In this document: one piece after another, positions 61,904-64,000 of the stretch | Numbering within the stretch: position 1 is the stretch's first letter | Layout of the letters: every line of letters begins with the position of its first letter | Assembly: GCF_900156695.1 (NCBI RefSeq) | Contig: NZ_FTOM01000002.1 | Coordinates: 744,001 to 808,000, forward strand | Source: Phaeovulum vinaykumarii | GTDB lineage: Bacteria > Pseudomonadota > Alphaproteobacteria > Rhodobacterales > Rhodobacteraceae | Direction: 5' to 3' | DNA length: 64,000 nucleotides | Position numbers and translations under genes: made by a program | The notes under the pieces: generated by a model | The model's input: only the letters and a program-made list of their open reading frames with translations | The model's database searches: none | Told to the model about the DNA's origin: nothing

Positions 61904-62764
61904 TCAGGCGGGCTCGGCGTCCAGAAGTGCCGCCCAGCCCGCGGCGTCGGTGCCCGCCAGTTCGATCACCGTCGCGCCGGCCGCATCGAGGCCCAGCACC
62001 GCGCCGTCGGGCATCTGCGCGATCCGCGCCAGACGATCGGTGCGCAGATGCATCTCGAGGCCCGGATCGAGCACGTTCCAATAGGGGCCATAGGTGGCGG
62101 TCTTGACGATCGGGCCTTCATATTCCGCCGCGCAGCCGCGGTTGGTCACGCGCAGCCGCACCGGCACGGCCGCCTCGGCCGCCCCGCGCATCAGCCGCTC
62201 GAAGGCGCCGGGGGCAAGCTCGCGCGCGGCCCCCGCGGCGTCCCGGCCCGCCATGCCGCCCGCGGGGGGCGCGGCCGGGGTGAAGAGGTCGCTCTGTTCG
62301 GGCAGGGCCAGGCCCGCGACCATCTCGTCCCAGCCGGGCGCCTCGGAACCTTCCAGCGCAAAGGCCTTGTGCACGGCCTCGCCCGCGGCATCGAAGATCT
62401 GGAGCGACCGGCGCAGCCCGCCCGAGACGGTGCGCGTCATGGCAAAGCCATGCACCCAATGGTCGGGGGTGATGTCGATGCCCACGCGGCCGTCGCCGTC
62501 GCGGTAATGGCCGGTGATCTCGAGAATGGCGATGTCGTTGCGCGTCAGCCCCATGATCGACGGATAGGGCGCCAGCGCCGCCAGGATGCGCGCCGGATCG
62601 GCCTGGATGCGGGTGATCGTGGTGCCGTCATGCGGGCCCAGATGCGCGGCCAGAAGGTCGGCCTCGGTGATCCCCAGCCCATCGGCAAAGTCGCGTTCGC
62701 GCGCGGTGGGGGCGGCGGCACGTTCGGCGCGGATCGTCTCGGGGGTGGGGCGGGGCGCGGTCAT
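61904..62764 (-). CDS. Heme-utilisation protein, HemS/HmuS-like, shorter than usual
   Basis: A 286-aa protein whose central part matches the HemS/HmuS fold: IMGLTRNDIAILEITGHYRDGDGRVGIDITPDHWVHGFAMTRTVSGGLRRSLQIFDAAGEAVHKAFAL. The second half has VRLRVTNRGCAAEYEGPIVKTATYGPYWNVLDPGLEMHLRTDRLARIAQM. Full-length HemS/ChuS are about 340-350 residues, so this form is about 60 shorter. These proteins bind, traffic or degrade cytoplasmic heme. No heme receptor or ABC genes are adjacent. Confidence 0.8.
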   Translation of the reverse strand: MTAPRPTPETIRAERAAAPTARERDFADGLGITEADLLAAHLGPHDGTTITRIQADPARILAALAPYPSIMGLTRNDIAILEITGHYRDGDGRVGIDITPDHWVHGFAMTRTVSGGLRRSLQIFDAAGEAVHKAFALEGSEAPGWDEMVAGLALPEQSDLFTPAAPPAGGMAGRDAAGAARELAPGAFERLMRGAAEAAVPVRLRVTNRGCAAEYEGPIVKTATYGPYWNVLDPGLEMHLRTDRLARIAQMPDGAVLGLDAAGATVIELAGTDAAGWAALLDAEPA

Positions 62765-63010: not shown

Positions 63011-63604
63011 TCAGAGGAATTCGATCTCGACCTGGGCGGCCTCGCGCCGGCGCAGGGCGATGAAGGTGTCGCCCACGCGCAGCTCGATCGGGTCGCGCAG
63101 GGGGGCGGCGCGGATCACATGGACATCGCGCCGGGGCTGGAGGCCCAGATCGAGAAGCCGCTGGCGCACCGCGCCGCAGCCGACCAGCCGCAGCACCCGG
63201 CAATGCGCGCCCATCGGGGCTTCGTCGAGGTTGGGGGCGCGGCTGGTGGGGGCGCAGCCGCACCGCTGGCCCGAGCCCGCGCAATGCTTGCCCTTGCCCT
63301 GATGCAGAACGGGCAGATCGTCGTCCAGAACCTTGCAGCCGGTGTGATGGCCCTGCGACGACGCCCGGCGCTTGCCGTGCGGGCCGCCGTGGCCCATGCC
63401 GTGGCCCATGCCGTGGCTGGCGTCGGGGCCCGGCCCGGTGGCGGCTGCGGCGGCCACGGTGCCCATGGGCAGCGCCTTGCGCAGCCGGGTGCGCCAGCCG
63501 CCCAGAACGCCGTCGGTCAGCGCGTCGGCCTCGGCGCCGGCCTCCATCGGCCCGCGCCCCATCTTGCGCCCGCGTCCACGCCCCGAGAAGATGCCGCGTT
63601 TCAT
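63011..63604 (-). CDS. FeoA-domain protein with His/Cys-rich N-terminal half
   Basis: A 197-aa protein. The C-terminal about 75 residues are a FeoA (SH3-like) domain: CRVLRLVGCGAVRQRLLDLGLQPRRDVHVIRAAPLRDPIELRVGDTFIALRRREAAQVEIEFL. The N-terminal 120 residues are Gly/His-rich (HGMGHGMGHGGPHG) with a Cys cluster (TGCKVL, KHCAGSGQRCGCAP). FeoA normally is a 75-90 aa helper of the FeoB iron transporter; the extension would add metal binding. AGGAGG lies four bases before the ATG. Upstream is a near-consensus FnrL site. FeoB is not next to it. Confidence 0.85.
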   Translation of the reverse strand: MKRGIFSGRGRGRKMGRGPMEAGAEADALTDGVLGGWRTRLRKALPMGTVAAAAATGPGPDASHGMGHGMGHGGPHGKRRASSQGHHTGCKVLDDDLPVLHQGKGKHCAGSGQRCGCAPTSRAPNLDEAPMGAHCRVLRLVGCGAVRQRLLDLGLQPRRDVHVIRAAPLRDPIELRVGDTFIALRRREAAQVEIEFL

Positions 63605-63687
63605 GTGCCCTCCTGCCGCGCCGTTCCGGCAAGAGAAGCCGGGAATTGCTCTGGCGCGAGAATTGACGTCCCTGGTCCCTGCGGGCC

Positions 63688-63701
63688 TTGATCCAGATCA
63701 C
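63688..63701 (-). promoter_or_regulatory. Candidate FnrL binding site
   Basis: TTGAT-CCAG-ATCAC differs at one position from the FNR/FnrL consensus TTGAT-N4-ATCAA. Its centre lies 90 bp upstream of the FeoA-domain ATG, consistent with low-oxygen activation from about -41.5. Inferred. Confidence 0.6.
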
Positions 63702-63738
63702 CGGAGACCGGCCGCCCGATCAAGCTGCATTTGCTGAT

Positions 63739-63757
63739 CTATTTCATCAAGAAATAG
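63739..63757. repeat. AT-rich 19-bp palindrome
   Basis: CTATTTC-ATCAA-GAAATAG has exact 7-bp arms. It stands out by AT content and lies between the FnrL-like site and the neighbouring gene. Terminator of the upstream gene or a second regulator site are both possible. Confidence 0.5.
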
Positions 63758-63941
63758 ACCTGCGACATTTGGGCCGCAAGCCCCGAAGCCCGCCTTCGGG
63801 CAGGGACATTGCCCAAAAAGGTCGCGGGCCGTGCGGGTTACGCAGGCTTTGCGGGCGCCCCGCGAAGCTCGGTGCCCCGTGACGCCCGGTGCCCGCTTGC
63901 CCCGACGCCTGCCTGATTGCGCCGGCGCCGGGCGCGGCCTG

Positions 63942-64000
63942 TCAGTGACAGCCGCAGCCGCCTCCATGCTCATGCCCATGGCCGTGACCGCCACAGCAGC
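63942..64000 (-). CDS. His/Cys-rich C-terminus of a SlyD-like protein (partial)
   Basis: Only the last 19 codons are in the window, ending with TGA at 63942-63944. The readable tail is CCGGHGHGHEHGGGCGCH. This strongly recalls the metal-binding tail of the FKBP-type prolyl isomerase SlyD, which ends in GGCGCH in E. coli and which supplies nickel to hydrogenase maturation through HypB. Other metallochaperones with similar tails cannot be excluded from so few residues. Confidence 0.5.
   Translation of the reverse strand, partial: CCGGHGHGHEHGGGCGCH

Follow-up and report, generated by a model that had tools for sequence, protein, structure and literature searches.

A lone feoA gene with an enlarged His/Cys-rich tail in Phaeovulum vinaykumarii: a possible auxiliary FeoA

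The FeoA proteins of FeoAB ferrous iron transporters share one domain (PF04023), and the locus described here raises the question of what such a domain does when its gene has no feoB beside it and its protein carries 124 extra N-terminal residues. The gene lies in the window, the whole 64-kb stretch of DNA that was analysed (G000:C18:744001-808000), which belongs to a genome of 3.48 Mb in 27 contigs. It is already known that FnrL can control feo genes and that FeoA can be encoded away from FeoB. One publication mentions both separate feoA and feoB loci and FeoA that carries a further domain, and it also considers several FeoA proteins in one operon to merit study (PMC8749426). A search of the literature found no report of a His/Cys tail on a lone FeoA.

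The lone gene, its product and its surroundings

The features of the locus are collected in Table 1. The PF04023 profile is covered nearly in full by the C-terminal part of the product, with a score of 60.4 bits against a cut-off of 23 (E 1.8e-16), and the domain matches 10 distinct PDB sequences at E values up to 0.1, the best being 2k5l (E 3e-9); solved FeoA chains include 2k5l, 2gcx, and 6e55. AlphaFold2, run on a 7-sequence alignment, returned a confident sequence-based prediction of the domain with five strands (10-residue blocks at pLDDT 84-96), while residues 1-120 were modeled at low values without secondary structure, and the tail is accordingly described here as predicted to be disordered. 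The sequence-only reading had proposed a FeoA domain joined to some 120 extra residues containing HGMGHGMGHGG and a Cys cluster, and this was confirmed by the 197-aa frame and its 124-residue extension. In that extension are eight His (residues 64, 68, 72, 76, 86, 87, 101, and 107) and four Cys (90, 108, 115, and 117), the last three of which stand immediately ahead of the domain; the tail is rich in Gly, Ala, and Arg and low in complexity, and the net charge is +11. Twelve His plus Cys residues exceed the 3.3% found in the long ORFs of the window (binomial p 8e-4). When 1050 further stretches of 124 aa from such ORFs were counted, however, 20 contained at least as many, so that the amount is unusual, not unique.

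Table 1. Features of the lone feoA locus and the DUF4198 contig ends; positions are those of the window unless a contig is named.
Feature	Position	Strand	Basis or remark
HemS/ChuX-type haem protein gene, 286 aa, downstream neighbour	61904..62764	-	PF05171, 113 bits
Lone feoA gene, 197 aa	63011..63604	-	ATG start; Shine-Dalgarno-like AGGAGG at 63609-63614
FeoA (putatively SH3-like) domain, residues 125-195	63020..63232	-	PF04023 profile, PDB sequence matches, AlphaFold2
N-terminal extension, residues 1-124	63233..63604	-	composition; predicted without secondary structure, pLDDT blocks 44-53
Cys cluster, residues 108-117 (C108, C115, C117)	63254..63283	-	sequence
His repeat HGMGHGMGHGGPH, residues 64-76, His every fourth residue	63377..63415	-	sequence
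FNR/FnrL-like box TTGATCCAGATCAC (GTGATCTGGATCAA on gene strand)	63688..63701	-	1 mismatch to TTGATN4ATCAA
Weak match to Iron-Rhodo-box-like palindrome	63732..63752	.	matrix from relatives; below scores of source sites
Perfect 7-5-7 palindrome CTATTTCATCAAGAAATAG, CTATTTC-N5-GAAATAG	63739..63757	.	once in genome without mismatch
Terminator-like stem-loop between rhodanese gene and feoA	63756..63783	-	1 found, 0.4 expected in shuffles
End of rhodanese-like gene (L004:3943-4599), upstream of feoA	63942..64000	-	His/Cys-rich C-terminal tail
DUF4198 contig ends	C18 L004 9107-9265; C27 L227 1-492; C7 L005 6481-6567; C12 L229 end

The absence of feoB from the vicinity, also proposed earlier, held when both sides of the gene were searched by tblastn with the two FeoBs of the genome: none was found in the 64-kb window or in the 5.3 kb beyond it, to the contig end, the search returning a 28-aa match that overlaps the end of the lone feoA in a different frame and one weak match (E 0.001) in a YihA-like GTPase gene. 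Downstream of feoA, the HemS/ChuX-type gene is adjoined by yidC. Upstream, an intergenic stretch of 337 bp separates feoA from the rhodanese-like gene, whose product terminates in CGCGGHDHAGGGCCGGHGHGHEHGGGCGCH, and toward the contig end there are a DUF2948 gene, a probable murA (by eye), a tRNA, a CobW-type GTPase gene, a cobalamin riboswitch, and a truncated DUF4198 gene.

Two of these neighbors deserve separate mention. Relatives of the rhodanese part occur on plasmids (89 records); both of the two records examined place them in metal or arsenic gene clusters, and feoA is absent from these two clusters. The HemS/ChuX-type protein is divergent and shorter than its relatives' open frames of roughly 350-400 aa, and its gene, next to yidC, is not in any haem uptake cluster seen here. 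HemS gene matches were obtained in 96 of 295 family genomes (own included), and among the 29 loci from other genomes listed, feoA, the rhodanese gene, and yidC are absent within about 1.5 kb.

Relatives of the lone FeoA and the DUF4198 operons

The genome contains three FeoA matches, the lone one on contig C18 and those on C7 and C6, each of the latter two beside a feoB. The C7 feoA abuts feoB, and the gene that follows encodes a Cys-rich protein whose PF12669 match falls short of the cut-off (24.1 bits against 27); the C6 copy stands with feoB and feoC. Nearest to the lone FeoA is the C7 protein, encoded on that other contig in a DUF4198-feoA-feoB operon (65% over 75 columns). Their domains are identical at 49 of 71 residues, with dN 0.246 and dS 0.733 (NG86), and the resulting dN/dS of about 0.34 over 71 codons suggests that the lone domain is under constraint, although the value is not decisive because a pairwise estimate mixes both branches.

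Outside the genome, close relatives are few. A search with the lone FeoA at E 1e-3 finds matches in 9 of 295 family genomes, the own genome among them, the sole close match being its own C7 FeoA and the next best reaching 1e-7; any FeoA occurs in 12 of the 295. Alignments of close relatives used as query match 25/385 class, 109/398 phylum, and 13/244 order genomes, samples that overlap and each represent part of their group, and besides the own genome only G405 (3e-26, class) and G951 (7e-29, phylum and order) fall below 1e-20. A lone tailed FeoA was found in no second genome among the family, class, phylum, and order samples searched. Plasmid relatives amount to 21 records, 0 of them covering 80% of the query. 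When genome contigs were scanned with the lone FeoA protein no locus was confirmed by tblastn, and alignment A2 gave at least 8 loci at 34-46% identity.

In G405 and G951, a DUF4198 gene, feoA, and feoB are consecutive, the DUF4198 call being by Pfam for G405 and by similarity judged by eye for G951 and G960. G960 represents a divergent form of the arrangement, in which a 77-aa FeoA lacking any extension precedes feoB and the genes for DUF4198 and a small protein point away; TTGATTTAGATCAT was noted by eye upstream of this feoA, and a match to the Vibrio MicX sRNA was found in the same genome. The operons of C7, G951, and G405 and the divergent form in G960 hold the closest FeoAs, but theirs precede feoB and the lone one does not. 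In a tree of 63 FeoA rows and 77 columns, the lone and C7 proteins are sisters (99/81), joined next by G951 and G405 (97/91). The rows are top matches, no random sample; four ORFs were left out, two as duplicates and two because their reading was wrong or too long, rows longer than 90 residues were trimmed to the last 90, and three fused rows were trimmed to the first 80-85.

Within this clade the region ahead of the domain is graded, with 121 residues by this count in the lone FeoA, 35-56 in those of C7, G951, and G405, and no more than 3 in that of G960. Its make-up varies too: the lone copy has both Cys and His, C7 and G951 have Cys, G405 has His in place of Cys (five in the last 35 residues ahead of the domain), and G960 has no tail. 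Across the 63 collected rows, at least 30 residues precede the domain in 8, and at least three Cys lie within 35 residues before it in 5, namely the window protein, C7, G951, L088 (whose extension is 11 residues), and L101 (whose start is probably wrong). Because the operon FeoAs of C7, G951, and G405 are tailed as well, the tail is an enlarged clade trait; the unique fusion envisaged at the outset is not borne out, the nearest FeoAs, in feoAB operons, bearing shorter Cys- or His-rich extensions. A homologue in a feoAB setting with no extension, named by the sequence-only reading as evidence that would count against it, does exist in G960, but it is more distant and the nearest ones are tailed.

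Both ends of each of the 27 contigs were inspected. Two DUF4198 genes are cut at contig ends. Their N-terminal parts lie on C18, where the riboswitch precedes, and on C27, where a small protein gene precedes; their C-terminal parts lie on C7, with feoAB, and on C12, with probable cbiM/Q/O genes named by eye. One end sequence is common to C18 and C27, another to C7 and C12, and these two DUF4198 genes with common sequence break the assembly. A small HTPLCACY gene precedes DUF4198 on C27, and the same order in G405 assigns C27 to C7, so that C18 would go with C12, a pairing that the assembly alone leaves undecided; the C18 gene is thus probably continued, by this comparison of gene order, by the cbiM/Q/O genes on C12. 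Joining C18 to the C7 feoAB operon, which would place the lone feoA some kb from feoAB, was considered and is disfavored by the G405 order, and nearness of the lone feoA to feoB is not claimed because both contig pairings are possible. One DUF4198 gene would then probably belong to the feoAB operon, and the other to an ECF transporter of the cobalt type that is led by a riboswitch; a single genome would thus use this periplasmic protein type for iron as well as for cobalt. The DUF4198-FeoAB genes are accompanied by a small protein of secreted type with the motif HTPL(C/F)(A/S)CYD(N/F)GD (L118/L039 in G405, L114 in G960, L227 on C27); the G405 protein has no Pfam match, and a weak relative of the HTPLCACY protein is present in the C12 cluster (29%, E 0.005).

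Regulatory signals ahead of the gene

The near-consensus FNR box that had been placed 90 bp upstream was recovered with one mismatch, a G in place of T at its first base, 84-97 bp ahead of the ATG (centered at about 90 bp), and the genome encodes an FnrL (NF045989, 466 bits, cut-off 300). In R. sphaeroides the FnrL sequence of feoA is given as TTGACGCGGATCAA and that of RSP1949 as GTGATCTGCATCAA, the latter likewise starting with G for T (PMC4634722). The window has two sites at one mismatch to TTGATN4ATCAA against 0.47 expected; genome-wide, 55 sites deviate by no more than one mismatch, compared with 2 for a backward-pattern control and about 25 at the window's Markov rate; at the genome's site density the chance of a box in the 337-bp intergenic stretch is about 0.5%. 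The motif occurs without mismatch at three places in the genome: before probable ccoN, before probable cydA, and inside probable pufL (gene names by eye). Distances from box to called start are about 97-110 bp for probable ccoN and 68-81 bp for probable cydA, and that for the lone feoA is similar. The C6 feoABC-type locus, searched together with its surroundings over 12 kb, has no box at up to one mismatch. The site inside probable pufL (L038 1501-1514; C23:599247-599260) lies in a gene that indicates photosynthesis genes in the host.

A box common to the lone gene and the C7 operon was considered and rejected. The 12-mer TGATCTGGATCA is also present before the C7 feoA, inside the end of the DUF4198 gene (VIWI codons); common regulation is not supported, since G951 has GTGATCTGGATC at the same place in DUF4198, and the two upstream regions are otherwise unrelated (their alignment scores 27, which the best of 200 shuffles also reaches).

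FNR-type control of feo has been described in the same bacterial group. R. sphaeroides feoABC is preceded by FnrL and CrpK sites (PMC4263372) and is placed under FnrL, CrpK, and IscR, but it is a complete operon, whereas here the box precedes a lone feoA (PMC4263372; PMC4618611). Iron limitation induces R. sphaeroides feoAB mainly without oxygen (PMC4176601). For R. capsulatus, the available account describes FnrL as having no direct control of iron transport genes and as indirectly repressing a FeoA family gene and FeoA2 (PMC4634722).

Further upstream, the palindrome noticed earlier next to the FNR box is perfect; genome-wide, five sites fit its pattern with up to two mismatches, compared with 2 for the control, and no named regulator was assigned to it. 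A second candidate signal partly overlaps it. The DNA ahead of HemS matches was taken from 29 relatives and yielded 13 sites with up to two mismatches to TTGAC-N7-GTCAA (consensus TATTGACTAAATTAGTCAATA), 10 of which were judged clean; judged by size and place, the palindrome so derived resembles the 19-bp Iron-Rhodo-box (PMC4618611). With the 10-site matrix, the site ahead of bfd in this genome scores 19.9, that ahead of the C6 feoA 15.7, and that at the lone feoA 10.9; this last match ranks third in the window and is equaled in 23 of 2000 shuffles; five whole-window Markov sequences gave 0, 2, 0, 3, and 0 hits as good against the 3 observed, and with all 13 sites the match ranks second (9/2000 shuffles). 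Because left-out training sites score 15.2-30.0, the match is a hint only. No sigma-70-like promoter was found ahead of the lone feoA, and the gene has no riboswitch. The fold of its leader RNA has a z of -2.06, with 7 of 200 shuffles folding as well.

Possible roles of the lone FeoA

On sequence grounds, the locus encodes an intact, constrained FeoA paralogue that stands apart from any feoB and bears an enlarged His/Cys tail, and metal buffering by such a protein, for which the sequence-only reading suggested iron or nickel at low oxygen, is plausible. The reading preferred here, to which we give a probability of roughly 0.4, is that of an auxiliary FeoA that is raised by FnrL at low oxygen, docks on FeoB, and binds Fe2+ through its tail to buffer or report it. 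At low oxygen, FnrL would raise transcription of the lone feoA, perhaps in concert with an iron signal of the IscR type; the domain, putatively SH3-like, would dock on the FeoB G-domain, as is thought for other FeoAs; and the disordered tail would bind incoming Fe2+, so that the protein could buffer the ion or report back to the transporter under high ferrous uptake. FnrL control, docking, Fe2+ binding, and buffering or feedback are each steps that we infer. In a natural fusion, FeoA stabilises GTP-bound FeoB (PMC8980893).

The sister relationship with the C7 FeoA, the domain identity and dN and dS values given above, and the Cys- or His-rich extensions of operon relatives favor an auxiliary FeoA, as do the FnrL of the genome and an FNR-like box at the usual distance. 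It is also consistent with the FnrL sites before R. sphaeroides feoABC (PMC4263372), the anoxic iron-limited induction of feoAB in that species (PMC4176601), and the distant-locus FeoA of H. pylori (PMC10353542). Against it stand the R. capsulatus account, in which FnrL lacks a direct role at iron transport genes and represses FeoA genes indirectly (PMC4634722), the search that found no sigma-70-like promoter, an Iron-Rhodo-like score of 10.9 below 15.2, the occurrence of the lone form in one genome among the samples searched, and a low-complexity tail equaled in His and Cys by the other stretches counted above. A further reading, which we consider unlikely, makes this FeoA a cytosolic carrier and gate for ferrous iron under the control of oxygen. 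With Fe2+ bound to the tail and the SH3 domain placed on FeoB, one protein would couple uptake, buffering, and feedback, and FeoA would gain a direct metal role.

The alternative that survives best, though we consider it rather unlikely, is a plain relocated FeoA serving FeoB remotely, with the tail a low-complexity linker devoid of metal function. Its precedent is H. pylori, where FeoA is likewise encoded far from feoB and works with FeoB (PMC10353542), and the conserved domain and structureless prediction for the tail would suit it. However, the H. pylori protein is the only FeoA of its host and is needed, and the published description mentions no His/Cys tail in the parts available (PMC10353542), whereas the present host has two more feoA genes beside feoB. 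The C7 FeoB already has an adjacent FeoA of its own, and Cys or His in the extension recurs across four relatives in one clade, which argues against an inert linker.

It is improbable that the gene is a duplicate of the C7 feoA that is neutral or in decay, with an extension lengthened through replication slippage: occurrence in one genome among the samples searched, a Gly/Ala/Arg-rich tail, and the lack of an adjoining feoB fit it, but the frame is intact, the ribosome site is good, and the dN/dS, if not decisive, is low. Least probable is a protein that handles nickel, cobalt, or zinc, makes protein contacts through its FeoA domain, and is linked to the CobW-type GTPase and riboswitch-led DUF4198 genes, for although His-rich tails are common in Ni/Zn/Co chaperones, those genes lie a few kb upstream with a probable cbiM/Q/O continuation (by eye), and the neighboring rhodanese is likewise His/Cys-tailed, DUF2948 and probable murA intervene, the CobW and DUF4198 genes are transcribed opposite to feoA, no riboswitch leads feoA itself, and its nearest FeoA relatives accompany feoB.

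The role of FeoA is still debated, and the graded tails of this clade, on the lone FeoA as on its operon relatives, are natural variants with which metal handling can be set against action on FeoB alone; the lone copy, moreover, can be deleted without touching feoB. In the same family, two loci of G246 (L015 and L018) encode proteins of about 345-350 aa that combine a regulator-like N-terminal part with two FeoA matches.
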